Assembly (NCBI GenBank): GCA_903898185.1
Contig: CAIUEN010000432.1
Location: forward strand, 1 to 35,327
Direction: 5' to 3'
DNA: 35,327 nt
Origin: an uncultured Verrucomicrobiales bacterium
GTDB lineage: Bacteria > Verrucomicrobiota > Verrucomicrobiia > Limisphaerales > Palsa-1400
Shown: in pieces, positions 2,991 to 35,204 of the stretch
Numbering within the stretch: the first letter of the stretch is position 1
Layout: every line of letters starts with the position of its first letter
Made by a program: the position numbers and the translations under genes
Notes under the pieces: generated by a model
The model's database searches: none
Seen by the model: only the letters and a program-made list of their open reading frames with translations
Told to the model about the DNA's origin: nothing

Positions 2991-4592
2991 TTAAGCGGGA
3001 CAATCACCCCAATCTGCTTTCCGATCCCCGCTCAATGAATTCAAATTGAACTTGGCCCGTTCAAATCCCATGGACACGTTGCCAACAATTGCCTCCAGCC
3101 ACATATCTTCCTGCACGGTATAGGACTGAATTCTTTCCCGTCCCAGCACAAATAAGCCCACCGAATTACCCATGGCCACAATGGGAACCAGACGGATGCT
3201 GATAAGCTTGAGGGATTTCAGTAATGGCAACGGCAACTCGGAATCAACCAGCACAGTCAGAGGTTCCTTGGCTTGCATGCACCGGTTTACAGGCGATGCC
3301 AGATCGGAGACGGCCACCCTGAAATTTGAGGGCCGCACCGTGATGGAAGAACCGAGCAGAAACCGGCCTTCCACAAACTGGCTTTGCTTGTTGATGAAGC
3401 CAACCAAGACCGAATCCGGTCGCACGCACCGGTAAATGGCTTCCATTGCGGTCAATAACATGTGATTAATATTTGGAGCTTTGCGGATGCCCAGCGAGAG
3501 GTCGGTCAAATACTGACCGATGATCAGTGTTGGATCCTGCTCTTGCTCTTGCATTTCCTGCGTTGCCGCGCCATAGGTCAGCGTTGCCGCCACTTGCGCT
3601 GAATCCACTTTTCCCCATTCGACAATCTTCATCATCATCTCAATGTCTTTGGCGTTGAGCTTGAAGAAGCGTTTGACGTTCGAATCCTCGTCGCATGACA
3701 TGGTGACAAAGCCACTCAATGTGAAGTCCTTGATGCCCAAGGCGGATTGCAGATGGGACTCAGCGGAGGACAATGCGGAGGGGCCTCCGGGGACATTGCC
3801 GAACATCATGTCGGCGATCTGGGTGCCGCCCGCGACGATGATGGAATTGCGGTCACGTCTGCCTCCATCGCCCAGGATGCGGGAAACATTTTCGGGCATG
3901 TTCCAATGCCGGGCGACCTCCGCCGCAAATGAATCGTAAGTAATTCCAAACTCTTCCAGGCATGCTTGATTGGTGGAGACTTTTTCGGAAATGATCCGCT
4001 TTTCCATTGCCGCGTAGCGCTCGGGAAATCCGTTGGCAAGCAACAGGCGCGGAAGGGCGCTTAAAACACCGCCCACGAGCAACTCTTCCGGATTTCCGTA
4101 GCCGACTTTGCGTCCAAGCGACATGGCGAAAAGCCCAGCGAAATAGGAGCAGGCAAAGAGCCTGTAGAGGTTGCGGCTCTGCGCGTTTTGGCTCATTTGC
4201 TTGATCAGCACCAACCCCATGGAGAGCGATTTGACTTTTTCAAAGCCCAGCAGGGCGATTGCGGCGGAAACGGTCTTGATCGGTTCTGCCGGGGCGTACA
4301 TGGCCGAATTGGATGTTGAGATCACTGCCGAGGTCAGGGCGCAGTCCCTCAGAATGACTGCGGTAAGATCAGCGATGCAGGTGGTGGGATCGTCTGTCAA
4401 ACTACAGATATTCCAAACATTGGCATCCAATGCCGGCAGTTTTCCACGGGCTTTCAGCTCGCCGACCAAGGCCATCGCTTTACTACTGACAGGCGTTTGC
4501 GTTTTTGACGCTGACTCAGTAATTGAGAATTGGTTTTCATCTGAACGCATGGACGAAAGCATAATTGCCGTTGCGACCTTGGACAAGGCCAT
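2991..4592 (-). CDS. HDOD domain protein with C-terminal GAF-like domain
   Basis: The protein has about 533 residues. An HDOD domain, a non-catalytic relative of HD phosphohydrolases used in signalling, spans roughly residues 50-260, with motifs such as DCALTSAVISTSNSA, ALLGFEKVKSLSMG and LVGGVLSALPRLLL. The C-terminal third (about 380-520) has GAF-like sequence, including LVPIVAMGNSVGLFVLGR. HDOD proteins usually act as regulators without an enzymatic HD pair. It is the third gene of the giant-repeat-protein operon and overlaps the transferase gene. A TTG at 4598 forms a 4-bp overlap with the transferase TGA, and an ATG two codons later (4592) is preceded by AGG-rich sequence. An ATG at 4550 is a third possible start. 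The position suggests control of, or signalling from, the glycosylation module; that role is inference. Confidence 0.8.
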   Translation of the reverse strand: MALSKVATAIMLSSMRSDENQFSITESASKTQTPVSSKAMALVGELKARGKLPALDANVWNICSLTDDPTTCIADLTAVILRDCALTSAVISTSNSAMYAPAEPIKTVSAAIALLGFEKVKSLSMGLVLIKQMSQNAQSRNLYRLFACSYFAGLFAMSLGRKVGYGNPEELLVGGVLSALPRLLLANGFPERYAAMEKRIISEKVSTNQACLEEFGITYDSFAAEVARHWNMPENVSRILGDGGRRDRNSIIVAGGTQIADMMFGNVPGGPSALSSAESHLQSALGIKDFTLSGFVTMSCDEDSNVKRFFKLNAKDIEMMMKIVEWGKVDSAQVAATLTYGAATQEMQEQEQDPTLIIGQYLTDLSLGIRKAPNINHMLLTAMEAIYRCVRPDSVLVGFINKQSQFVEGRFLLGSSITVRPSNFRVAVSDLASPVNRCMQAKEPLTVLVDSELPLPLLKSLKLISIRLVPIVAMGNSVGLFVLGRERIQSYTVQEDMWLEAIVGNVSMGFERAKFNLNSLSGDRKADWGDCPA

Positions 4593-4594
4593 TC

Positions 4595-6607
4595 TCAACC
4601 TGCCGCGCCATCCACGAAGAGGCGTCGGTCGGGGGCTATCGGACGGAATTTGTGGCGATGGGCCAGTTTTTCAAGCCACCAGCCATGATAGTCTTTGATC
4701 GTTTGAACTTCTATTTCGTCATGTTGCACTTGACTGCCGACCTCCAGATACACATCAAGATTGGCAAGATCCGGTTGATCCATATCCCCATCTTTGAACT
4801 CACCCCACATTTGCCCATATAATTGTTCGAGATGGCGCACCAGCAACGGCATGTCGAACAGCGAGCATGAATCCCGTCCATTGAGAAGCTTTTCACGATA
4901 GGGTTGAATCAAGGCGCGATCATTGCCCAAGGTCACGGCGCGATCTACGAATTCCTCGGCGGATGCGCAGATCAATTCAGAAATGCCGGCCGCCCGGACC
5001 AGACTGCCGCAAACACGGGATGCGAACGAGCGGCCACTCATCGTGAGCACCGGCACGCCCATCCAAAGGGCATCTGACGCCGTCGTGTGCGCTCCATAGG
5101 GGGCGGTGTCAAGAAATAAATCCGCCAGTGTGTAGCGGGCAAGATGCGCGGCGTGGGCCACTTTTTCCGCAAAAACCAGGCGCTCTGGCACAATACCGCG
5201 TTGGGCGGCATAATTTTTCAGTCGCGTATTCGTTGCCTCGGTGCTGCTCAGCAGCCACAGAACGCTTTCTGGAACCATGCTCAGGATCATCAGCCATCGG
5301 TCGAACGTAAAGCGGTTGATCTTGTGAGCGCCGTTGAAACAGCAATAGACCGTCTGGTTCTCTGGAAGTCCGACGTCTCTTCGAGAAGGCCGCTGGGAAG
5401 ATACGACACGCTTGCGATCCGTGGGCTGGTAGCAAGGCAGCCGCATTACCTTTTCCGAATAATAGATCTCGTGGTCTTCGGGAATAATCCACTCATCGGC
5501 GATGATGTATTGGTGATAAGGACTGCCCATTGTCCCTGGGTATCCCAGCCAGTTTGCGATGACTGGCGCGGGTCGTAGCGCGAACAGCTTGGTGCGTCCC
5601 TCGCGGGTGTAGCCATTGAGATCGACCAGAATTTGAATGCCATCGGCGGCGATCCGACGAGCGGCAGTCGCATCGTCCATCTCGGTGATCGAGACCCAAT
5701 GATCGGTGGTAGCCTTGAATCTTGCATGTATAGGGTCCTGAGCGTTCGGGCCGCAATAATAGGCGAACACTTCCACCGCGCTCCGGTCGTGCAATTCGAG
5801 CACCTCGGCCAGCAGATGGCCAAGGGCATGCTCGCGGAAGTCAGAGCACACATAGCCGATCCGCAGAAGCCCCGGGCTTTCGGTCGCTCGATCCCACGAG
5901 ATCATCGGCAATGAGGGGGTGCCAACGTCCATTTTGTTGTAGTTCCATGCTATTGCCAGGTGCAACAGAGGGTCGTCGGTATAGGCAGCGGCGGAGAGCG
6001 GAGAAATCCCCCGCATAAGAACGTCCTGGTTGACCCGCTCCCAAGGCGAAATCACCGGCCATTCGCATTGTCGCTGCCGAAGCGCAATGAAATGCTGGGC
6101 CACCTCCCTTTGATGGCAGTCGAGTTCCAGACTTTGACGCAGCATGTTTTCGGCGGATTCGTCATGGTTCGCGGCTTCCAGCGCGCGCGCGCTCTGATTA
6201 AGAGCCGTTGTCTTGAAAGTAATGGAAGCGCCATTGACTGAAGCCAATTTCGCCAATACCGCCGACCACTGCACAATAGCCGGGCCGACGGTTCCCTGCC
6301 GTTCGTAGATGCGCCCGAGATTAATGTACGCCGGCATGAAATCCGGGTTGATGGAGATCAAGCGTTCGAGACATTCGCGCGCGGAACTCAAGTTGTTGGC
6401 ATCCGAAAGGGTGACTGAATAATTGAAGAGAATCGCATAGAGCAGCGGATTATCCTGGTTGTGCCGAATCCAAGTCGCGTAAAGAGTCACCGCCGACTCA
6501 GCCTGGCCGCTTTGCTTCAACGTTTCAGCCGTGCGAATAAGGTCGGTCGCGCTAAAATTGCGCGCCATGGACTGAATGAGAGCGGACGAAAAAACATCGG
6601 TCACCAT
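4595..6607 (-). CDS. TPR-containing O-GlcNAc transferase homologue (SPINDLY/GT41 family)
   Basis: This 670-residue protein has N-terminal TPR-like helices (about 17-115) followed by a complete GT41 catalytic region. Diagnostic motifs are visible: GYVCSDF (251-257) with H260 in HALGH, corresponding to the conserved His of human OGT; LNGYT (330-334); LGYPGTMG (354-361); CFNGAHKI (423-430), whose Lys matches the UDP-contacting Lys of OGT; and AHTTASDALW (506-515) with the HTT and Asp that hold the nucleotide-sugar. ASRV is at 529-532. No catalytic motif appears lost. GT41 enzymes transfer GlcNAc (some transfer fucose) from a nucleotide sugar to Ser/Thr in the cytoplasm. The gene starts 30 bp after the stop of the giant Thr-rich repeat protein, which makes that protein the obvious candidate acceptor. 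A non-catalytic tail of about 65 residues has no recognised motif. The start ATG is preceded by purine-rich sequence. Confidence 0.92.
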   Translation of the reverse strand: MVTDVFSSALIQSMARNFSATDLIRTAETLKQSGQAESAVTLYATWIRHNQDNPLLYAILFNYSVTLSDANNLSSARECLERLISINPDFMPAYINLGRIYERQGTVGPAIVQWSAVLAKLASVNGASITFKTTALNQSARALEAANHDESAENMLRQSLELDCHQREVAQHFIALRQRQCEWPVISPWERVNQDVLMRGISPLSAAAYTDDPLLHLAIAWNYNKMDVGTPSLPMISWDRATESPGLLRIGYVCSDFREHALGHLLAEVLELHDRSAVEVFAYYCGPNAQDPIHARFKATTDHWVSITEMDDATAARRIAADGIQILVDLNGYTREGRTKLFALRPAPVIANWLGYPGTMGSPYHQYIIADEWIIPEDHEIYYSEKVMRLPCYQPTDRKRVVSSQRPSRRDVGLPENQTVYCCFNGAHKINRFTFDRWLMILSMVPESVLWLLSSTEATNTRLKNYAAQRGIVPERLVFAEKVAHAAHLARYTLADLFLDTAPYGAHTTASDALWMGVPVLTMSGRSFASRVCGSLVRAAGISELICASAEEFVDRAVTLGNDRALIQPYREKLLNGRDSCSLFDMPLLVRHLEQLYGQMWGEFKDGDMDQPDLANLDVYLEVGSQVQHDEIEVQTIKDYHGWWLEKLAHRHKFRPIAPDRRLFVDGAAG

Positions 6608-6637
6608 ATCTTCTTCTTTATCCTATCCATTGTCACC

Positions 6638-9600
6638 TCACACCATGGCATCATTCAACGCCGCAATCTGATCTGAAGTCATCGCAGCCAATTGAACCGC
6701 AGTGAGAGCGCCAATTTGAGTTCCATTTAATGCCGCAATATCCGTCGTTGTGAGATAAGAGAGGGTCGTTGCTGTCAATGCGGCCATCGTTGTCGTGGTT
6801 ATTTGGCTGAACTGAACCGCTGAAAGCGGCGCTATCATCGTGGGCGAGATAATGACGCCGATTTGTGTTGCGGTCAACAGGCCAATCTGAGTGGAGGTCA
6901 GCGCGCTCAATTGCGACGACGAAAGACTTAGAAATTCGGTGGATGTCAGACTGCCTATCTGGGTGCCACTCATGGAAGCAACCTGTGTTGTCGATAGAAC
7001 ATTGAACTGATCCAAGCTCAGAGATCTGATTTGCATACGTTCCAAACCACTGATCTGCGCGGCAGTCAGCCCCTCAATTTGCGTGGTCGATAGGTAATCA
7101 ATGGCGGTTGTTGTCAACGATCCTATTTGAGAGGGAATCAAACCGGCAAGCTGCGTGAGTGTCAACTGATTGATCTGCGCCTGGGTCAAGCCAGTGATCC
7201 CGGATGTGGACAGCCAACTGATCTGGTTCGGCGAAAGAGTCTGGAATTGAGTCGATGTCAGAGCCGCGATCTGAGTTGCGGTCAAGCCGCTGAGTTCTGC
7301 CGGGGTCAACAGCGTGATTTGCGTCGTCGTCAGGCTGCTGATCTGGGACGCCGAAAGCCCGGTGATGCCGGTTGCTGACAAACTCATAAACTGAGTGTTT
7401 GTCAAGGCTAGAAATTCCGTGGATGTCAAGCCGGAGATCGCCGTGGCGGATAATGCCGCCATTTCTGTCGGAGTCAGCGCCGCCATCTGGGTGGTGGTCA
7501 GAGCCGCGACCTGAGTCGATGTGAGACCGCTGATTCCCGCAGCGGAGAGCGCTGCCATTTGAGTCGTTGTCAAGGCTCCAATCTGGGTTGTGGACAAACC
7601 CGCAACCTGGGTCGAGACAAGTCCTCCCATTTCCGCAGTTGACAACAGTGCCATTTGCGTTGCGGTCAAACTGGCAAGCTGCGACGTCGTAAGAGCAGCC
7701 ATTCCGGTTGCAGACAAGCTGCTGAGTTGGGTCGTCGAGAGCAACGCGATGTCGTCGATCGACAGGGCGGAGACAGCCGTGGTGGACAAAGCCCCCATTT
7801 CCGTTGCTGTCAGCGATGCCAACTGAGTTGTGGACAAGGCTGCAATTTGTCGGGCAGTCAGTCCGGCGACTCCCATTGTGGAAAGCGATGCGACCTGAGT
7901 TGTGGAGAGAGCCCCAATTTGGGCGTCGGTCAGCGCGGTAACTTCAGTGGCTGTCAGACCGCGAATCTGCGCGCTGGTCAACGCCGCCACCCGAGTGGCG
8001 CTCAATGTGGCGATCTGGGTGCTGGTCAACGCGCCGACCTGTGTCGAAGTCAGAGCCGCCATTTGACTTGAGGTCAATGCGGCCAATTCATCGGCGGTCA
8101 GCCCGGTAATCCCGGTGGTGGACAATGCGGCGATCTGGGTTGTCGTAATCGCGGCAAGTTGTGTCGCTGTCAGCGCTGCAAGTTGAGTTGATGTCAGGCC
8201 GCCGACCTCGGTGATGGTCAGAACGGCAAGCTGTGTGGTGGAAATTACGGCGAGCTGCGCCGTGGTGAGCGCGGCGACTTCGCTGCTGGTCAGGCCATTG
8301 ATCTGAGTGGTTGTCAGCGAGCCAATTTGTGTGGTTGATAGCAGCCCCACCTGTGTTGTGGTCAAAGCTCCCACCTCCGCCGGAGTGAAGGCTGCCATCT
8401 GCTTTGCCGTGAGGCTCGCGATCTGATCTCCAGTCAGCCCCTTGATTGCCGAGGTAGAAAGGGCGATGACCTGGGTGGTGCCGAGGACGCCGATTTGTGT
8501 GGTGGTTAACGTCGCGACTTCGGTGGAGGTCAAACCGTAGATCTGGGCGGTGGTCAGCGCCGCCACTCGCGTGGTGGTTAATGCGCCGATTTGCGTCGTG
8601 GTCAACGAGCCAATTTGGGTCGAAGTCAGGGCCGCCATCTGAGTTGTGGTCAGCGCGGTCAACTCGGAGCCGGTCAAGCCGGAGATTCCTGTGGTGGACA
8701 ACGCGGCGATTTGATTTGCAGTCAGCGCGGCAAGTTGTGTCATGGTCAGCGCGGCAACCTGGGTCGAAGTCAGTCCGCTGATTTCGACGCTGGTCAGCGC
8801 GGCCAGTTGCGTGGCAGTCAGAGCGCCCAACTGAGTTGGAGCGAGGGCGGCGATTTCGGTGCTGGTCAAGCCCTTGACCTGCGTGGTCGTGAGCGCGACA
8901 AGCTGCGTGGTGAGCAGCGCTGAGAGCTGGGTTGTGGTTAAATACCCAAGCTGGGTTGCGGTCAGTTCTCCAATCTGAGTTTCGGTTAACGCTGTCAACT
9001 GTGTCAAGGTTAAGCCGCTGACCGCAGTGCTGGACATTGCCGCGATCTGAGTTGAGTTTAAATTGTCGATCTGGGTGGTGGTCAGCGCCGCAACCTGCGT
9101 GCCGGTGAGACCGCCAAGCTCTGTGGTAGTCAGCACCCCCAATTGCGTGGACGTAAACGTCCCGATCTGGGTGGTGGTCAGCGATCCGAACTGAGTCGAA
9201 GTCAGCGCCGCGAGTTGTCTGGTATTCAGGGCCGCCAACTCATCGCCAGTCAAGCCAGGGATTGCTGTGGCGCTCAAAGCGGCGATCTGGGTGGTGGTCA
9301 AAGCGGCAAGCTGGGTAGTAGTCAGAGCCGCGACTTCAGCGCTGGTCAAGACGCCCATCCCGGTGGTGGGCAACGCGGCGATTTGCGTGACGGTCAATGC
9401 GCTCATCTGCGTCACAGCAAGGCCGGCGAATTCAGTTGTTGTCAAACTGCTGATCTGCGTCGTCGTCATGCTGCCAATTTGGGTGACAGTCAAGGCGGCG
9501 ACCTGATCTCCACTCAAGCTGCGAACCTGTGTGGTGGTCATCGTGGCGATTTGCGTGGGTGTCAAGGCCGCCATCTGGGTCGTCGTAAATCCGTCAACCC

Positions 9601-12600
9601 CAATAATGGACATCACAGTGACCTGGCTTTCCGAGAGGGCGGCGAGCTGGGTGGGCGACAGCGCCGTAACCTGGGTGTCCACCATGCCGCTGATCTGGGT
9701 GGTGGATAGCGCCGTAATCTGGCCAGTGGATAGCGACGTGATTTGCGTTTCTGTCAGCGATCCAAGCTGAGTCGATGTTATGGCGGCAAACTGATCGGCG
9801 GTCAGCGCCCCCAGTTCGCCTGTCGTCAGGCCACGGATCGCCGAAGTTGTCAGCGCGGCCATTTGCGTGCCAGCAAAAGCTCCAATCTGGGTCGCGCTCA
9901 ACATCGCCGCCTGAGTGGCCGTCAAGGCGGACACTCCAGTCGTTGTGAGCGCGGAAAGTTGCGTGGTTGTCAACGCCATCATTTCGGTCGTCTCCAACCC
10001 GCTGACTGCATTGGTGGACATCGCTGCAATCTGGCTTGACGACAGAGCAGCCAGTTGATCCAACGATAGCACTGCAACCTGGGTGTCGGTAAGTCCGCCA
10101 ATCTCGGTTGTGGTTAGAGCCCCCATTCGCGTGGGGCTCAAACTCGCAATCTGATCTGTGGAAAACGCGCTGATCTGAGCCGCTGTCATGGCGGCAATCT
10201 GCCTTATTGTCAGCGCCGCCAGTTCAGTTGTTGTCAGGCCACTGATTCCCGTAGTGCTCAACGCGGCGATTTGTGTGGTGGCGAGCGAGCTCAACTGAGT
10301 TGTCGTCAAAGAAGCTGTCTGGGTGGATGTCAATCCGCCCATTCCAGATACAGTCAGTGCGGCAAGTTGTGTTGTTGCCAGCGCGACCAGTTGGGAAGTG
10401 GTGAGATCTCCAATTTCAGTCGTGGTCAAGCCCCTGATCTGCGTTGTGGCCAGACTGCCGATCTGGGTTGTGGTCAAAGCCACGATCTGACTGTAGCTCA
10501 GACTGCTGATCTCCGCAGTGGTCAGGGCGGCGACTTGTGTGGTGGTCAGCGCCGCCACTCCCGTTGTCGTCATGCCGCCAACGGCGGTATTCGATAACGC
10601 CGCGATTTGCATGGTCGATAGGGCGGCAAGCTGGGGCAACGATAATGCCGCCACTTGCGTGTCGGCCAGACCGCCAATCTCGGTGGTTGTGAGCGCCGTA
10701 AGCTGCGTGATGGCCAATGTCTGGATTTGTTTGGTCGAGAGGGATCCAATTTGAGACGAAGTCATGCTGGCAACCTGTGTGGCAGTCAGCGTTGCCAGTC
10801 CGGCGTCCGTCAACCCATCGATCGCCGAGGTGGATAAGGCAGCGATTTGCGTTGTCGATAATGTCGCCAACTGGGTTGTCGTCAGGGTTCCGACTTCGGT
10901 GCTGGTCAAACCTTTGACCTGAGTGGCGGTGAATACCGCGATTTGTGTGGTCGTCAGCGCGGCGATCTGATCGCTGGTCAGCGCCCCGATTCCGGCGCTG
11001 GTCAACCCTCGGATCTGTGTTGTGGACAGCGCCGTGAACTGCGACGATGTAAGCGCGCTGAGCGCGGTCGTCGCCAGAGCGCCCATCTGAGTGGACGTCA
11101 AACCGGCAAGCTGGGTGGTCGTCAGCGTCACGAGTTGGGTATCTGTGAAGCCGCTGACTGCTGTGGAGGTCAGCGCTGCAAGCTGAGTGGGTGCCAGCAC
11201 ATCAATCTGGGTATCGGCCAAGGTGCTGATCTGACCGCTGGTCAACCCCTTGATTTGGGTGGGGGTTAGAGCCGCAAGCTGGGTCGATGTCAAAGCATCA
11301 AGCGCGGTGGTGGTGATCGCTCCCAGTCCGGTCGCCGTCAGTGCTGCGAGCTGAGTTGCAGTCAAAGCCGCCATCTGTGTCATTGTCAAACCGGCGACCC
11401 CAGTGGCGGTCATCGCCGCAATTTGCGTCGAGGCGAGGGCTGCAAATTGGGTGGGGGCGAGCAATCCGATTTCAGCGCTGGTCAGCCCTTGGATCTGCGT
11501 GATGGTCAACGCCGCAATCTGATCCCCCGTCAGCGCCGCGAGCTGATCCCCGGTCAGGGCTCCAACTTGAGCGCTGGTCAGCCCCTTGATCTGCGTGGCG
11601 TTCAGCGCCGCAAGTTGAAGTGTTGACAACAGGAGCATTTGCGTTGATGTCAGCGCCGCGAGTTCGGTCGCCGCCAGTGCCGCGAGTTGAGTTGCCGCCA
11701 GCGCCGCGAGCTGATCTCCAGTCAGCCCCTTGACCTGTATCGTGGTCAGAGCCGCGACTTGCGTGGTGGTCAGCGCGGCGAACTGCGTGGTGGTCATGGC
11801 GCCAATCCCGCTGCTGGTCAGACCTCTAAGCTGCGTGGAGGTCAACGCTGCGAGTTGAGTGGCAGTCAGGGCATTGACCTCCGTCGTGGTGAGAGCCCCA
11901 AGCTCGGTTGTCGTGAAGCCGGCAAGCTGGGTGGTGGTCAACGCCGCGATCTGGGGCGATGTAAGGCCACCGACCGCCGAGGTGGTCAGCGCCGAAAGCT
12001 GAGTCGATGTCAGAGTGGCAATCTGAGTATCAGCCAAAGTTCCTATTTCGGTGGCAGTCAAGCCCTTGACCTGGGTGGTGGTCAACGCCGCAAGCTGCGT
12101 GGTCGTCAGCGCGATGATCTGATCTCCCGTCAGCGCCCCAATTCCAGAGATGGTCAACCCCGCGATCTGGGTGACGCTGAGCGCCGCAAGTTGAGATGTC
12201 GAAATCAGGGCCACTTGCGTGGTGGTCAATGCCCCCAGCTCGGTCGCTGTCAGTGCCGCAAGTTGCGTTGCAGTCAGCGCCGCGAACTGATCTCCGGTCA
12301 GCCCTTTGACCTGCATCGTAGTCAGCACTGCGACTTGCGTGGCGCTCAACGTCGCGATCTGGGTGGTGGTCATTGCCCCGATCCCGACACTGGTCAGCCC
12401 TCTAAGCTGGGTGGTGGTCAGCGCCGCGAGTTCGGTGGCAGTCAGGGCATTGACCACCGTTGTGGAAAGCGCCCCCATCTCGCTGATTGTCAAACCGCCA
12501 AGCTGAGTTGTGGTCAATCCCGTAAACTGCGTGGACGTAAGGCTGCCGACGGTGGAAAGGGAAAGCGCCGCAATTTGCGTTGATGTCAGAGCGGCGAGTT

Positions 12601-15600
12601 GTGTATTGGCGAGATATCCGATTTCAGTGGAGGTCAGACCCGCGACCTGTGTGGTGGCCAGCACCGCGATTTGCGTGGTGGTCAGGGCCGCAAGTTGATC
12701 CCCGGTCAAAGCTCCGATTCCAGAACTGGTCAACCCTCTGAGCTGCGTGGAGCTTAGCGCCGCCAGTTGAGTTGGCGCCAGCAGGCCCACCTGCGTGGTG
12801 GTCAATGCTCCCATCTCGGTCGCTGTGAGCGCTGCCAATTGAGTCACAGCCAGCGCCGCGAGCTGATCTCCAGTCAGGCCCTTGACTTGCGCGGAAGTCA
12901 GCGCCGCGATCTGGTCTTTCGTCAGGACGGCGAGCTGCGTAAGGTTCAATACGCCGACACCGGCGCTGCTCAGCCCCCGGATCTGCGTGGTGGTCATGGC
13001 CGCAAGTTGGGTCGTCGTCACGCCGCCGATCGCGGTCGTGGTAATCGCTCCCATCTCGGTCGTTGTCAGGCCGTTAAGCTGTGTCGTGCTCATGGCCGCA
13101 ACTTGCGGTGACGTGAGACCGCTGATCGCGGAGGGGATCAATGCCGCAAGCTGCGTTTGCGTCAGGATGGCCATCTGGGTATTGGCTAGAGATCCGATGT
13201 CAGTGCTGGTCAGCCCCTTGATTTGCGTAGTGCTCAATACCGCGAGTTGCGTGGAGGTCAGCGCCGCAAGCTGATCTGCGGTCAGAACCCCGATTGCCGT
13301 GCTGGTCAGCCCCTTGAACTGAGTGACGCTGAGCGAGACAATCTGGGTTGTTGACAAAAGCCCAATCTGAGTGGCGGTCAAGGCCCCCAGTTCGGTCGAT
13401 GTCAGCGCCGCAAGTTGCGTCACGGCCAATGCCGCGAGCTGATCCCCGGTCAGCCCCCTGACCTGGGTGGCGGTCAGCGCCGCAAACTGGGCCGTCGTCA
13501 GGGCGGCGACCTGCATCATGCTCAGCTCGCCGACACCGGCAAAGCTCAGACCTTGGATCTGCGTGGTGGTTAAAGCCGCAAGCTGGGTTGTGGTCAGGCC
13601 ATCGATTGCTGTTGTGGTGAGCGCCCCGATCTCGGTGGATGTCAAACCGCCGAGTTGGGTCGTGGTCAACATCGCAAGCTGGGTTGATGTCAGACCACTG
13701 AGCACGGAAGGAACCAGCGCCGCAAGTTGCGTCTGTGTCAAAGCGGCGAGCTGCGTATCGGCCAACGCTCCGATTTCGGTGCTGGTCAGCCCCTTGAGTT
13801 GCGTGGCGTTCAACACAGCGAGCTGCGTGGTAGTCAGCGCCACGAGCTGGTCCATGGACAGAACTGCGATTTCGGTAATGGTCAGTCCCTTGATCTGCGT
13901 GGTGCTTAGCGCCGCAAGTTGAGTTGTCGCCAGCAGTCCCACCTGCGTGGTGGTTAACGCTCCCAGCTCGGTCGATGTCATTGCTGCGAGTTGTGTCGCT
14001 GCCAGTGCCGCGAGTTGGTTCCCGGTCAAGCCCTTGACCTGAATGGCGGTTAGCGTCGCGAACTGGGTTGTCGTCAGAGATGCAAACTGCGTCACGCTCA
14101 ATTCGCCGATGCCGGAGCTGGTCAAACCCTTTATCTGCGTGGTGGTTAATGCCGCAATCTGAGTCAGCGTAAGGCCGTCAATTGCCGTCGTGGTAAGCGC
14201 TCCCATCTCGGTCGCCGTCAAGCCGCCAAGCTGAGTTGTGGTCAACGCCGCAAGCTGAGTTGGCGTAATGCCTCTGACTGCGGATGAGGTCAGCGCCGCA
14301 AGTTGTGCTTGCGTCAGGATGGCAAGCTGGGTATCGGACAGAGCTCCGATTTCGGTGCTGGTCAATCCTTTGATCTGCGTGGTGCTCAGCGCTAAAATTT
14401 GGGTGGTGGTCAGCGCTGTGAGATGATCCGCAGCCAAAGCTCCGATACCGGTGCTGGTCAGCCCTTGGATCTGCGTAACGCTCAGCGCCGCCAATTGAGT
14501 TGTCGCCAGCAGGCCCACCTGCGTGGGGGTCAACGCCCCCAGTTCGGTCGATGTCATCGCCGCAAGTTGAGTTGCTGCCAGCGCCTCGAACTGATCGCCG
14601 GTCAGGCCCTTGACCTGTACGGTGGTCAGCGCTGCGATCTGTGTCGTCGTCAGGACGGCGAGCTGCGCCACGCTCAGTTCACCGACACCAGAGCTGGTCA
14701 GACCTTGTATCTGTGTCGTGGTCAATGCCGCAAGCTGGGTCGTTGTCAGACCATCAATTGCCGTCGTGGTAAGGGCTCCCATCTCGGTCGCTGTCAAGCC
14801 GCCGAGCTGAGTTGTGGTCAACGCCGCAAGCTGATCCGATGTGAGGCTGCGGACTGCGGCGGTGGAAAGCGCGGCAAGTTGCGTCGATGTCAGGGCGGCA
14901 AGCTGGGTATCAGCCAGCGCTCCGATTTCCGTGCTGGTCAGCCCCTGTGCCTGCGTGGCGCTTAATGCGGCAATCTGCGTGGTGGTCAGCGCCGCGAGCT
15001 GATCCTCATTCAGCGCCCCAATTCCGGAGCTGGTCAGCCCTTGGATCTGCGTGGCGCTTAGCGCCGCAAGTTGAGTTGTGGACAGCAGGCTTACTTGCGT
15101 GGGAGACAAGGCCCCCATCTCGGTTGACGTCAGCGCCTCGAATTGCGTCGCAGCCAGTTCCGCAAGCTGATCTCCAGTCAGCCCCTTGACTTGGGCGGTG
15201 GTCAACGTCGCAATCTGCGTAGCGGTCAGCGCTGCAAGTTGGTCCCCGGTCAAATCTCCGATTGCGGTGCTGGTGAACCCCTTGATCTGAGTTGTGGTGA
15301 ACGCCGCAAGCCGGGTCGCCGTCAACAGGCCCACCTGAGTCGTGGTGAGAGCGCCAAGCTCGGTTGGCGTTAGAGCTGCGAGTTGCGTCTCAGTCAGAGC
15401 CGCGAACTGATCCGCAGTCAGACCTTTGATCCCAGCGTTAGTCAAGGCTGCAATTTGCGCGGACGTCAATGCCGCGATTTGCGTAATGGTCAGTTCGCCG
15501 ACATCGGTGCTGGTCAATCCCTGAATTTGCTTGGCGGTGAGGGCCGCAATCTCCTCCTGCCTGAGAACCTCCACCTGCGCTTTGCTTAAAACGGAAAACT

Positions 15601-15802
15601 GAGCCGCGCTGAAGACTTGAATTTGCGTTGCCTTTAGCGCATCCACTTGCTCAGTGGATAGCTCCGTGATCTCCGTGGTGGTCAGCGCCGCGATTTGAGT
15701 TTCCAACAGCGAAGCAAAATCTGTCGCCGGTATGTTTTCAATCGCGGTTTTCGACAGGCTCGCAATTTCTGTTGCTCTGTAGGACGATATTGATATGGGC
15801 AT
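6638..15802 (-). CDS. Giant Thr/Ser-rich octapeptide-repeat protein (about 3,055 aa)
   Basis: Nearly the whole protein is about 380 tandem octapeptides of consensus L-T/S-x-T-Q/E-I/L/V-x-A/G (e.g. LTTTQIAA, LTSTEIGA), with no stop or frameshift over 9.2 kb. About one third of residues are Thr or Ser, and Cys and aromatic residues are almost absent. T-x-x-Q/E resembles a helix-capping box, so short helices are possible; a solenoid is an alternative. Units form 24-unit (192-residue) superrepeats. The first 60 residues and the far C-terminus are more varied and carry most of the Lys, Arg and Glu. I see no signal peptide, membrane segment or cell-wall anchor. ATG 15802 was chosen because the repeats begin just after it; ATG 15841 would add 13 unrelated residues, and neither has a strong ribosome binding site. 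It heads an operon with an O-GlcNAc transferase homologue. Function is not known; a heavily O-glycosylated structural or surface protein is the best guess. Confidence 0.9.
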   Translation of the reverse strand: MPISISSYRATEIASLSKTAIENIPATDFASLLETQIAALTTTEITELSTEQVDALKATQIQVFSAAQFSVLSKAQVEVLRQEEIAALTAKQIQGLTSTDVGELTITQIAALTSAQIAALTNAGIKGLTADQFAALTETQLAALTPTELGALTTTQVGLLTATRLAAFTTTQIKGFTSTAIGDLTGDQLAALTATQIATLTTAQVKGLTGDQLAELAATQFEALTSTEMGALSPTQVSLLSTTQLAALSATQIQGLTSSGIGALNEDQLAALTTTQIAALSATQAQGLTSTEIGALADTQLAALTSTQLAALSTAAVRSLTSDQLAALTTTQLGGLTATEMGALTTTAIDGLTTTQLAALTTTQIQGLTSSGVGELSVAQLAVLTTTQIAALTTVQVKGLTGDQFEALAATQLAAMTSTELGALTPTQVGLLATTQLAALSVTQIQGLTSTGIGALAADHLTALTTTQILALSTTQIKGLTSTEIGALSDTQLAILTQAQLAALTSSAVRGITPTQLAALTTTQLGGLTATEMGALTTTAIDGLTLTQIAALTTTQIKGLTSSGIGELSVTQFASLTTTQFATLTAIQVKGLTGNQLAALAATQLAAMTSTELGALTTTQVGLLATTQLAALSTTQIKGLTITEIAVLSMDQLVALTTTQLAVLNATQLKGLTSTEIGALADTQLAALTQTQLAALVPSVLSGLTSTQLAMLTTTQLGGLTSTEIGALTTTAIDGLTTTQLAALTTTQIQGLSFAGVGELSMMQVAALTTAQFAALTATQVRGLTGDQLAALAVTQLAALTSTELGALTATQIGLLSTTQIVSLSVTQFKGLTSTAIGVLTADQLAALTSTQLAVLSTTQIKGLTSTDIGSLANTQMAILTQTQLAALIPSAISGLTSPQVAAMSTTQLNGLTTTEMGAITTTAIGGVTTTQLAAMTTTQIRGLSSAGVGVLNLTQLAVLTKDQIAALTSAQVKGLTGDQLAALAVTQLAALTATEMGALTTTQVGLLAPTQLAALSSTQLRGLTSSGIGALTGDQLAALTTTQIAVLATTQVAGLTSTEIGYLANTQLAALTSTQIAALSLSTVGSLTSTQFTGLTTTQLGGLTISEMGALSTTVVNALTATELAALTTTQLRGLTSVGIGAMTTTQIATLSATQVAVLTTMQVKGLTGDQFAALTATQLAALTATELGALTTTQVALISTSQLAALSVTQIAGLTISGIGALTGDQIIALTTTQLAALTTTQVKGLTATEIGTLADTQIATLTSTQLSALTTSAVGGLTSPQIAALTTTQLAGFTTTELGALTTTEVNALTATQLAALTSTQLRGLTSSGIGAMTTTQFAALTTTQVAALTTIQVKGLTGDQLAALAATQLAALAATELAALTSTQMLLLSTLQLAALNATQIKGLTSAQVGALTGDQLAALTGDQIAALTITQIQGLTSAEIGLLAPTQFAALASTQIAAMTATGVAGLTMTQMAALTATQLAALTATGLGAITTTALDALTSTQLAALTPTQIKGLTSGQISTLADTQIDVLAPTQLAALTSTAVSGFTDTQLVTLTTTQLAGLTSTQMGALATTALSALTSSQFTALSTTQIRGLTSAGIGALTSDQIAALTTTQIAVFTATQVKGLTSTEVGTLTTTQLATLSTTQIAALSTSAIDGLTDAGLATLTATQVASMTSSQIGSLSTKQIQTLAITQLTALTTTEIGGLADTQVAALSLPQLAALSTMQIAALSNTAVGGMTTTGVAALTTTQVAALTTAEISSLSYSQIVALTTTQIGSLATTQIRGLTTTEIGDLTTSQLVALATTQLAALTVSGMGGLTSTQTASLTTTQLSSLATTQIAALSTTGISGLTTTELAALTIRQIAAMTAAQISAFSTDQIASLSPTRMGALTTTEIGGLTDTQVAVLSLDQLAALSSSQIAAMSTNAVSGLETTEMMALTTTQLSALTTTGVSALTATQAAMLSATQIGAFAGTQMAALTTSAIRGLTTGELGALTADQFAAITSTQLGSLTETQITSLSTGQITALSTTQISGMVDTQVTALSPTQLAALSESQVTVMSIIGVDGFTTTQMAALTPTQIATMTTTQVRSLSGDQVAALTVTQIGSMTTTQISSLTTTEFAGLAVTQMSALTVTQIAALPTTGMGVLTSAEVAALTTTQLAALTTTQIAALSATAIPGLTGDELAALNTRQLAALTSTQFGSLTTTQIGTFTSTQLGVLTTTELGGLTGTQVAALTTTQIDNLNSTQIAAMSSTAVSGLTLTQLTALTETQIGELTATQLGYLTTTQLSALLTTQLVALTTTQVKGLTSTEIAALAPTQLGALTATQLAALTSVEISGLTSTQVAALTMTQLAALTANQIAALSTTGISGLTGSELTALTTTQMAALTSTQIGSLTTTQIGALTTTRVAALTTAQIYGLTSTEVATLTTTQIGVLGTTQVIALSTSAIKGLTGDQIASLTAKQMAAFTPAEVGALTTTQVGLLSTTQIGSLTTTQINGLTSSEVAALTTAQLAVISTTQLAVLTITEVGGLTSTQLAALTATQLAAITTTQIAALSTTGITGLTADELAALTSSQMAALTSTQVGALTSTQIATLSATRVAALTSAQIRGLTATEVTALTDAQIGALSTTQVASLSTMGVAGLTARQIAALSTTQLASLTATEMGALSTTAVSALSIDDIALLSTTQLSSLSATGMAALTTSQLASLTATQMALLSTAEMGGLVSTQVAGLSTTQIGALTTTQMAALSAAGISGLTSTQVAALTTTQMAALTPTEMAALSATAISGLTSTEFLALTNTQFMSLSATGITGLSASQISSLTTTQITLLTPAELSGLTATQIAALTSTQFQTLSPNQISWLSTSGITGLTQAQINQLTLTQLAGLIPSQIGSLTTTAIDYLSTTQIEGLTAAQISGLERMQIRSLSLDQFNVLSTTQVASMSGTQIGSLTSTEFLSLSSSQLSALTSTQIGLLTATQIGVIISPTMIAPLSAVQFSQITTTTMAALTATTLSYLTTTDIAALNGTQIGALTAVQLAAMTSDQIAALNDAMV
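6690..15740 (-). repeat. Nested tandem repeat: 24-bp unit, 576-bp superrepeat
   Basis: The coding array has a 24-bp period throughout (one octapeptide). On top of this is a 24-unit, 576-bp higher-order period. The same distinctive unit (LTTTAIDG type) recurs at 11307, 11883, 12459, 13035, 13611, 14187 and 14763, exactly 576 bp apart. In the other half, the GGL-type unit pairs 10095/10671 and 9111/9687 are also 576 bp apart, but the phase between those pairs is broken by insertions or deletions of whole 24-bp units. All length changes keep the reading frame. Confidence 0.9.
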
Positions 15803-15868
15803 TGCGGTAAAGGTCCATGCGCTTCTATTGCAGAGTAGCATTTAATGCTTGTGGCTGCAAAATAAATC

Positions 15869-22978: not shown

Positions 22979-23677
22979 ATGCGGATGAAGACGTTTGAAG
23001 AGCTTGGGTTTCCGGGACGGTTGATTGCGGTCGAAGGCTTGGACGGTTCGGGTAAATCGACGCAGATTTACCTTCTCAAGCGATGGCTTGAGTTGGAAGG
23101 GCTGAAGGTGTTTTTTACGGAGTGGAATTCCTCAGCTCTTGTCAAAAACGCCACCAGCAAAGGCAAGAAACGCGAACTGCTCACTCCAACGACCTTCAGC
23201 CTGATCCACGCTACCGATTTCGCCGACCGCTACGAACGGCAGTTGGTGCCGTTGTTGCGAGCCGGCTACCTGGTTTTGTGCGACCGCTATATTTTCACGG
23301 CCTTCGCGCGAGACACGGTGCGGGGCTGCCCCCCTGAATGGGTTCGCGGCATCTACGATTTCGCCGCATTGCCGGACCTCACCTTTTTCTTTCGCGCCAA
23401 CCTCGAAATCTCGCTCACGCGCATTTTGGACGGACGTCCGCAACTCAAGTATTTTGAGGCGGGAATGGACCTGCGACTGTCATCCGACCCTTACGAGAGT
23501 TTTCGGATTTTTCAGGGCCGTATTTTGGAGCAGTACCTGGCAATGAGCACAGAGTTCAAGTTCTTGGTAATCGATGGCAATCAACCGATTGAAGCTCAGC
23601 AGACGGTCGTTCGTGATTTGGTGGCTTCGAAAATCGATCTGGCGCGTTTCATGCGCAAACCCTTGGAAAAGAAATGA
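22979..23677 (+). CDS. Thymidylate kinase-like protein 1
   Basis: This 232-residue P-loop kinase of the thymidylate kinase fold has Walker A GLDGSGKST (20-28) and the DRY motif (102-104) after a hydrophobic strand (GYLVLCDRYI). dTMP kinase makes dTDP from dTMP for DNA synthesis. Compared with canonical Tmk, the region before DRY (TTFSLIHATDFADRYERQLVPLLRAG) is recognisable but divergent. The substrate could therefore be dTMP or another nucleotide or metabolite. The gene is followed by a paralogue whose ATG overlaps its TGA (ATGA). An ATG two codons downstream is an equally possible start. Confidence 0.8.
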   Translation: MRMKTFEELGFPGRLIAVEGLDGSGKSTQIYLLKRWLELEGLKVFFTEWNSSALVKNATSKGKKRELLTPTTFSLIHATDFADRYERQLVPLLRAGYLVLCDRYIFTAFARDTVRGCPPEWVRGIYDFAALPDLTFFFRANLEISLTRILDGRPQLKYFEAGMDLRLSSDPYESFRIFQGRILEQYLAMSTEFKFLVIDGNQPIEAQQTVVRDLVASKIDLARFMRKPLEKK

Positions 23678-24420
23678 AGAAGAACGGTTCGAGTGGAGTG
23701 AATCGGCAGCGCATTGTGGTGCCCAAGTCCAAGCCCAGGCAGTTTTACGGGCACGGGATTCCGGGCGTTGATGCGTCCAAACTTGCCGGCAAACTTATTG
23801 CTGTTGAAGGCGCCGACGGCTCTGGCCGTTCCACGCAAATCGTTCGGCTGGTTGAGTGGCTGGAAGGATCAGGCCACGCCACCGTGCAAGTGGGGCTTAA
23901 ACGGTCCACTCTGGTCAGCGAGGAGTTGGAAAAGGCGCAAGCGGGAAACATCCTGAGCCACACGACGTTGAGTCTCTTCTATGCGACGGACTTCGCGGAT
24001 CAATTGGAAAACATCATTTTGCCTGGCTTGCGCGCGGGGCTGATGGTACTGGCGGATCGCTATATCTATACTTTGATGGTTCGCGACATGGCGCGGGGAA
24101 TGGATGAAGCATGGCTGAGAAACCTCTATGGCATCGCGCCGATTCCCGACGCGGTTTTCTACCTGAACGTCTCGCCCGAGGAATTGGTGCAGCGGAATTT
24201 CGCAAAAAAACAGGCGCTCGATTTTTGGGAAAGCGGCATGGATTTGGGTCTTTCGAGAGATATGTTCGACAGCTTTCTCAAATACCAATCGCTGGTTGCC
24301 GCCAAGTTCAAATCGCTGCAGAAGACCTACGATTTCACCATAGTGGACGGCAATCGATCTCCCGATCAGATTACGCTGGAATTGCGCAAGAAGATCAACG
24401 ACGTCCTGGCCGGGAAATAA
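23674..24420 (+). CDS. Thymidylate kinase-like protein 2, Walker A Lys replaced by Arg
   Basis: This 248-residue paralogue of the preceding protein has the same order of motifs: HTTLSLFYATDFADQ, GLMVLADRYIYT with DRY at 127-129, then WESGMDLGLS. The P-loop reads GADGSGRST (46-54), so the usual catalytic lysine is Arg52. The two copies share the ATDFAD, LRAG, DRYI, RDxxRG and GMDL blocks, which points to tandem duplication. A basic extension of about 38 residues precedes the P-loop strand. Lys-to-Arg in Walker A often weakens or abolishes phosphoryl transfer, so this may be a regulatory partner forming a heterodimer with protein 1. That is inference. Its 4-bp overlap with gene 1 implies coupled translation. 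Confidence 0.75.
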   Translation: MKKNGSSGVNRQRIVVPKSKPRQFYGHGIPGVDASKLAGKLIAVEGADGSGRSTQIVRLVEWLEGSGHATVQVGLKRSTLVSEELEKAQAGNILSHTTLSLFYATDFADQLENIILPGLRAGLMVLADRYIYTLMVRDMARGMDEAWLRNLYGIAPIPDAVFYLNVSPEELVQRNFAKKQALDFWESGMDLGLSRDMFDSFLKYQSLVAAKFKSLQKTYDFTIVDGNRSPDQITLELRKKINDVLAGK

Positions 24421-34226: not shown

Positions 34227-35204
34227 CTAATTGGTCATCACCACCCGATAAAAACCGTTACTCAGATTTGGTATCACTGGCAACGATACTTGGCTCGGCG
34301 AGAATGAAGGAGGAATATTCGAGATTGTCTCCCAGTTGGTTCCCAATTGGCTGGCAAACTGCACGAGGTAGCGGTATCCAGCCAAAGATGGAAAAGCAAC
34401 ATTGAAAGGACTGCCCGATGTCGAAAGAGGGGCCAAGCGAGGGGCATCTGCGCCTGCAGGAGGTGGCACTACCAGCAGGTGGGCTGAATTGCTGGCTTGT
34501 CCAGCGATGTTGCTCAAAACCAACGAGTAGATGCCGCAGTGAGAAACATCCAGATTTGTTAAGACCAGCGGAACCGTGGTTGCATTGGTTATGACATTGG
34601 CATTCACATGCCAACGAACTGATGCCGGGCTGCCAGCTATGCCAGGATTGAAAATGACACTTTCTCCCGTAGGAACAATGGTGTCCTTAAGCGCATTCGT
34701 GATTAGCGGCGGGCTGATGACCGTCAGAGTCGCCGAATTATTGGTTGCTCCAGATGCATTGGTGACAATGATTGTGTAAGTGCCTGCGTTCGTCAGTTGG
34801 ACATTGGTTATTGTCAGGGAATTGGTGACCGCGCCTTGAATTTTGTTCCCGGCAAACTGCCACTGGTAAACCAAGGGCGGGGCGCCACTTGCAACAACGG
34901 TGAAAGTCACGTTTGAACCCACCACATTGGTTATGTTTTGCGGAGGCGTGGTGATGGTTGGCCAGGAAGAAGCCTTAATATTAAAGGTAAACAATTGGGA
35001 CATATTCCGTCCGGTGTTACCGGTCTTCTCCCATGCCGTTATGCTGAAAGTGTTGGTGCCGGTCTGGGTCGGAGTGCCGCTGATCGATCCTCCTGTGGTT
35101 AGCGTGACCCCGGGGACGAGCGGGAAGGAGCTTGATCCCAAAGGTGCCGTGGTTGTGCTCCACGAAAGGGCGATTTGTCCACTGACACCTAGTACATTGA
35201 ACAT
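34227..35204 (-). pseudogene. Ig-like domain secreted protein, 5'-truncated
   Basis: The remaining 325 residues contain the end of a putative Ig domain (TTGGSISGTPTQTGTNTFSI, He_PIG type) and two Ig-like domains (about 85-165 and 166-245, with YQWQFAG and NAGTYTIIVTNASG). The C-terminal module is of the kind common in Verrucomicrobia (YRYLVQFASQLGTNWETI ending FYRVVMTN). There is no signal peptide. The frame is closed by a stop directly before the only ATG, so the front of the gene is missing. An IS630-like element begins within about 30 bp of this point, pointing to insertional disruption. The intact protein would have been a surface or secreted adhesin-like protein. Confidence 0.75.

Follow-up and report, generated by a model that had tools for sequence, protein, structure and literature searches.

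We identified, in a 35,327-nucleotide stretch of DNA from an uncultured Verrucomicrobiales bacterium (the window), a two-gene cassette that probably encodes a dedicated cytosolic OGT-type glycosyltransferase of family GT41 together with the protein it modifies, a giant, secreted alpha-solenoid built of ALTTAQ octad repeats. The co-occurrence of the two genes is established. OGT-like GT41 genes are common among bacteria, and to our knowledge the acceptors of the enzymes they encode are largely unknown. For one of these enzymes, TtOGT, no activity was seen on any peptide tested and no natural acceptor was found (PMC4683255). The two genes adjoin in four or more bacterial groups, and again on many plasmids, which makes the giant protein the best candidate yet for the target of such an enzyme.

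The cassette and its two proteins

The two genes lie on the minus strand of the window in the order ALTTAQ array, GT41 gene, and are followed by an HDOD-domain gene:

6638..15802, minus strand: giant ALTTAQ octad-repeat gene, 3054 aa with its ATG at 15802; the proposed acceptor
15841..6638, minus strand: full open reading frame of the giant repeat gene, 3067 aa from the first start
11438..12157, minus strand: modelled array segment, residues 1229-1468; predicted solenoid with a short alpha helix per octad
6608..6637, minus strand: 30-bp spacer from the stop codon of the ALTTAQ gene to the start codon of the GT41 gene
6607..4595, minus strand: OGT-type GT41 with N-terminal TPRs, 670 aa (PF13844, E=7e-86)
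4598..2991, minus strand: HDOD-domain gene (PF08668, E=3e-35)

The remaining genes of the window are ordinary housekeeping genes. A tandem pair of neighbouring thymidylate-kinase-family genes occupies 22979-24420 (plus strand), and at 34227-35204 (minus strand) an immunoglobulin I-set domain protein is encoded beside a polyprenyl synthetase and an ECF sigma factor. PADLOC models for anti-phage defence gave no match in the window, and a phage origin of the cassette was rejected, its GT41 having no relatives in the viral contigs searched.

The initial annotation had described a giant Thr/Ser-rich protein with 8-residue spacing, followed 30 bp later on the same strand by a GT41 enzyme with its key motifs intact, and both descriptions held. 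With the start set at the ATG at 15802, from where homologs begin, the giant protein has 3054 residues (30.6% Thr plus Ser), a molecular weight of ~305 kDa and a pI of ~4.1. Residue identity at lag 8 was 0.40, against 0.128 expected, and 0.38–0.45 at lags 16, 24, and 32; 374 in-phase octads with the consensus L-[TS]-x-T-Q-[ILV]-[AG]-[AG] account for 98% of the chain. On a larger scale the array repeats every 192 aa (24 octads), which shows the mode by which it grew. The Pfam model ALTTAQ_rpt (PF20080) matched 85 stretches with 1236 bits in all, above the gathering threshold, making the protein a clear member of that family. No signal peptide was evident by eye, and no sigma-28-like promoter was found 5' of the array in the 18 loci examined.

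An AlphaFold model of a 240-residue stretch of the array was a solenoid (mean pLDDT 95.3, pTM 0.87), in which each octad forms one helix of five or six residues spanning positions 3–7 and the Ser/Thr of position 2 directly precedes the helix, at its N-cap. A search of solved structures with this model returned none with a TM-score >0.40, mesothelins being best by E-value. Since the position-2 Thr occupies the helix N-cap in the model, the Thr hydroxyls of an octad are predicted not to be all equivalent; positions 3 and 4 would be exposed, to judge from the placement of the helix and the variability within the family. The annotation's two or three acceptor hydroxyls per octapeptide should be refined accordingly, with position 2 at the modelled N-cap and only position 4 marking the arrays that accompany this enzyme. 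Stand-alone ALTTAQ arrays, described below, are similarly rich in Thr and Ser, so composition by itself proves nothing, and we rejected it as evidence of glycosylation.

The GT41 enzyme falls in the OGT branch of its family. It carries the Glyco_transf_41 domain with aligned catalytic residues, TPR families were found at its N-terminus as in the TPR plus GT-B architecture of OGT, and its structural model matched both OGT and XcOGT (TM-score of 0.8 on the target for XcOGT). Its similarity to human OGT (E ~1e-91) exceeded that to SPINDLY (E ~1e-52), placing it outside the SPINDLY O-fucosyltransferases, and was far above that to an HMW1C-type enzyme (E ~6e-4); against the NGTferase model it scored 21.8 bits with a cut-off of 1000, so it is not an HMW1C-type N-glycosyltransferase. 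OGT residues D554, H558, K842, H901, H920, T921, T922, and D925 align with D256, H260, K429, H488, H507, T508, T509, and D512 of the window's enzyme. These residues are invariant across 16 relatives of type A, the group that we define as the window's clade plus its nearest alphaproteobacterial kin. At the site equivalent to OGT Lys898, the window's enzyme has His and its relatives mostly have Asn.

Pairing of GT41 and ALTTAQ genes across genomes

The initial annotation had proposed checking for co-occurrence of the GT41 and repeat genes, and this check was strongly positive for these two genes. When 84,980 genomes were scanned with a four-sequence GT41 alignment, 14 relatives with 60–71% identity were recovered from Verrucomicrobiota, Myxococcota, Desulfovibrionaceae, and Alphaproteobacteria. 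A giant ALTTAQ gene lies directly upstream on the same strand in 13/13 testable cases; the 14th was left out of the count, as its contig ends 242 bp upstream. The spacing ranges from 0 to 156 bp (30 bp in the window), and the upstream proteins measure 2,493–3,327 aa where uncut by a contig end or sequence gap. A GT41-first search of plasmids gave the same picture: in each of the best 12 records (43–50% identity) an ALTTAQ array lies no farther than ~6 kb from the GT41 gene, and in ten the distance is <1 kb, with plasmid H5 counted as paired by analogy with its sister plasmid H4 and from coordinates only.

PF20080 itself is rare, occurring in 12/385 genomes of the window's class, 6/386 Alphaproteobacteria, 13/218 Desulfovibrionia, and 7/241 Myxococcota, counts that include one single weak match in Desulfovibrionia and four single hits in Myxococcota. 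Starting from the repeat, all 12 Desulfovibrionia genomes with real arrays have them paired with GT41 (one pair is split across contigs), as do all three Myxococcota array genomes. In the window's class, 4 of 12 array genomes are paired and 8 have stand-alone arrays, several of these cut by contig ends; among the six alphaproteobacterial array genomes, the array is adjacent to GT41 in two, separated from it by ~4 kb in two, and unpaired in the other two. Because stand-alone ALTTAQ proteins exist, the pairing is one-way. One stand-alone ALTTAQ ORF from the window's class (L063 / G389:C77) reaches 6,821 aa and has a 408-bp higher-order repeat.

The linkage of transferase and putative acceptor is conserved across lineages. 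In the GT41 tree, all members of a clade of 36 sequences (SH-aLRT 100) are encoded next to ALTTAQ arrays, across phyla and in several gene orders, with one contig untestable. The ALTTAQ-linked GT41 lineages are divergent (33–71% identity), and paired loci include array followed by GT41, GT41 followed by array, and divergent arrangements. A second ALTTAQ-linked group, from Pseudomonas, Cereibacter, and Rhodovastum, we call type B. The one exception to the pairing was alphaproteobacterial genome G413, where a second type-A-like GT41 (L239:7674-10955) has no ALTTAQ array nearby and sits directly downstream of a UDP-glucuronate decarboxylase-like gene. Genome G601 has a type-A GT41 flanked by two same-strand ALTTAQ genes (L176:1-13408), with a third array ~0.3 Mb away (L175). 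A search of the 57 nearest relatives of the window's host found the ALTTAQ repeat absent, from which we infer that the cassette is sporadically distributed and, on an evolutionary timescale, probably mobile.

That the two genes are neighbours by chance, or as unrelated hitch-hikers, is a reading to which we give almost no credence. The cassette GT41 is the sole GT41 gene in 15 paired genomes, the window's included, and random placement would give the adjacency in 14 single-GT41 genomes with a probability of ~10^-65, a figure that ignores common descent and is inflated because of it. The recurrence of the adjacency across phyla and gene orders refutes chance unless all pairs derive from one recent transfer, which is opposed by the 60–71% identities and by the variation in gene order seen in Alphaproteobacteria and Pseudomonas. 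The third gene fares differently. The initial annotation had proposed a dedicated glycosylation system in the form of a three-gene regulated operon, with an HDOD-GAF protein as its dedicated regulator, and of this the pairing of GT41 with the repeat protein is borne out by co-occurrence. The HDOD gene shares the strand, touches the GT41 gene in the window, and is probably co-transcribed with the pair; no HDOD homolog adjoins the pair in any of the other loci examined, which makes a dedicated regulatory role very unlikely. As the HDOD gene is not conserved with the pair, we rejected it as a third component. Its HDOD assignment stands and its GAF assignment does not, no Pfam GAF domain being found; the reported overlap with the GT41 gene amounts to four bases with a TTG start and disappears with an ATG two codons later.

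Threonine position, sugar donor, and export

We compared the octad positions of threonine in 72 arrays or array fragments. The Thr-4 fraction is 0.38–0.93 where a type-A GT41 is present in the locus (for one G601 array, in the same genome) and 0.02–0.27 elsewhere, with 9% in stand-alone arrays. The Thr-3 fraction is 0.59 or higher with type B and does not exceed 0.39 with type A alone: arrays of the type-B group (Pseudomonas, Cereibacter, Rhodovastum) have Thr-3 at 0.69–0.89 and low Thr-4, and in the three loci with A and B in tandem (Niveispirillum, Pseudoroseomonas, and G661) both are high. Within Acetobacteraceae, Pseudoroseomonas (A and B) and Rhodovastum (B only) differ as a position code would predict. 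A broader rule, Thr-4 in every GT41-paired array, was rejected: pairs of the Rhizobium, Pseudomonas, and Cereibacter types are low in Thr-4, and the rule holds only for type A. We keep a position code linking GT41 type to Thr-3 or Thr-4 as a strong hypothesis only, because the Mann-Whitney values take no account of phylogeny and the arrays may simply have been inherited together with their enzymes; the code may reflect co-inheritance rather than enzyme specificity.

The initial annotation had taken the transferred sugar to be GlcNAc or fucose, which is an assumption. Each of the five non-cassette type-A loci has, near its GT41 gene, a gene of the UDP-glucuronic acid decarboxylase family (by RefSeq name) or a homolog with 72–74% identity, which suggests, from these alphaproteobacterial relatives, UDP-xylose as the donor of type A. 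This was the one hint at a donor that we found for this enzyme type, and it is a lead, since the decarboxylase-like gene had no NCBIfam match above cut-off. Rhizobiales have a UDP-galactopyranose mutase gene nearby instead.

Type I secretion and flagellar export each move a protein out of the cell directly from the cytosol, in a single step, and would therefore suit a cytosolic transferase. Eight array loci have type I secretion genes as neighbours, and in five loci the pair lies among flagellar genes (FliF/FliG at L100; FlhA/FliQ/FlgC/FliI at L188; flagellins/FlgE at L189 and L200; FlgE at L199). No export genes of either kind lie beside the cassette within the window. At two of the eight loci with type I genes, both from the window's class (L071:1407-3664 and L072:707-2909), a type I ABC gene starts 79–125 bp past a stand-alone array. 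On plasmid pA of the model organism Cereibacter sphaeroides 2.4.1 (L181:6694-13404), an ALTTAQ protein annotated as 'ICE nucleation protein' is divergent from an OGT-like gene and beside a type I secretion system. FlhA was present in 19/19 paired genomes tested, including the window's, versus 74/237 in the window's class; its presence is necessary but not sufficient for a flagellar-export substrate. HlyD matched at curated level in 11/19 paired genomes, and type I secretion is unsupported as a universal exporter, eight of the 19, the window's among them, having no HlyD above cut-off. Because the host genome has FlhA and no HlyD above cut-off, we infer that flagellar export may serve the giant protein there; so large a chain leaving through the flagellar channel is an unusual proposal.

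Proposed mechanism and comparison with known systems

In the mechanism we propose, the TPR domain of the GT41 enzyme would bind the repeat protein, and its catalytic domain would add a monosaccharide to Thr-4 of each octad, for which the window's array offers ~250 candidate sites. The glycosylated chain would then exit in one step, independently of a signal peptide, by flagellar type III export in hosts like the window's and by type I secretion elsewhere, and would form a heavily glycosylated surface or flagellum-associated fibre. More tentatively, this can be extended to a sugar code on the solenoid, in which GT41 types A and B would glycosylate Thr-4 and Thr-3, respectively, hundredfold, with type A perhaps using UDP-xylose, so that glycans would be arrayed periodically along a fibre that is secreted or associated with the flagellum. 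We regard this fuller version as possible rather than likely.

Two other readings keep the pair together. In one, the main substrate of the enzyme is flagellin or some other exported protein, and the ALTTAQ protein is not its acceptor but a co-inherited, flagellum-linked structural or scaffold protein. The five loci with flagellar neighbours, the presence of FlhA in every paired genome tested, and the precedent of FlmG, a TPR-containing cytosolic flagellin glycosyltransferase (PMC7591256), are consistent with this. However, the constant neighbour of the enzyme is the ALTTAQ gene rather than flagellin, most pairs, including the window's, are distant from flagellar genes, and some adjoin type I secretion genes instead, and we therefore consider it unlikely. 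In the other reading, Thr/Ser richness is purely structural, in that it caps helices and keeps the surface soluble; the GT41 enzyme modifies few sites or serves the giant protein as a chaperone or quality-control factor. The position-2 Ser/Thr at the modelled N-cap and the similar Thr/Ser content of stand-alone arrays argue for this reading. The fold does not demand Thr-4, as its 9% in stand-alone arrays indicates, yet Thr-4 dominates in the arrays found with type-A GT41, and the OGT-aligned catalytic residues are conserved in the enzyme; we find this reading improbable. A dedicated GT41 with the giant ALTTAQ protein as its acceptor remains the interpretation we favour.

With a genetic partner conserved across four or more bacterial groups, the acceptor question can be tested directly in hosts that are culturable and non-pathogenic: Solidesulfovibrio, Rhizobium, and Cereibacter sphaeroides. 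If the proposal is right, it would add a route by which an OGT-type enzyme gives rise to giant exported proteins with heavy O-glycosylation, and a modelled fold of one helix per eight residues with no close solved relative in the structure search, and types A and B would form a natural experiment on hydroxyl choice by OGT-type enzymes.

Our literature searches, which did not extend to subscription journals and preprints, found no description of the GT41-ALTTAQ pair, and neither a paper under the name of the ALTTAQ repeat nor an account of its structure was found; the proposed acceptor belongs to the Pfam family of that name (PF20080). The window's enzyme has its family, fold, and conserved active-site residues in common with XcOGT, TtOGT, plant SPINDLY, and human OGT, although SPINDLY takes GDP-fucose as its donor and matches less well than human OGT. 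Three systems resemble the proposed arrangement. In Haemophilus influenzae, the GT41 N-glucosyltransferase HMW1C serves the large adhesin HMW1 (PMC10507012, PMC3012730), and here too a cytosolic GT41 would be genetically linked to a large exported acceptor. HMW1C, however, modifies Asn, has an AAD domain in place of the TPRs of the window's GT41, and serves an adhesin that leaves by two-partner secretion, and the fold of the partner differs. The serine-rich repeat proteins of Gram-positive bacteria are O-glycosylated in the cytosol by GtfA/GtfB before export through SecA2/Y2 (PMC6973325). They would share with the cassette a dedicated linked transferase, a giant Ser/Thr repeat acceptor, and cytosolic O-glycosylation followed by dedicated export; they differ in having a two-protein transferase complex, serine-rich repeats, a signal peptide, and an accessory Sec system, where the cassette has one OGT-type GT41 and a solenoid of helical octads. 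The Caulobacter crescentus enzyme FlmG is a TPR-guided cytosolic O-glycosyltransferase that modifies flagellin before its one-step export (PMC7591256). The proposed enzyme would likewise be a TPR-bearing cytosolic O-glycosyltransferase acting on an exported protein, whereas FlmG places pseudaminic acid on flagellin and has no giant repeat acceptor. By analogy, we propose that the cassette works like HMW1C/HMW1, SRRP/GtfAB, and FlmG/flagellin and belongs to none of them, because the branch of the enzyme, the fold of the acceptor, and the linkage differ.
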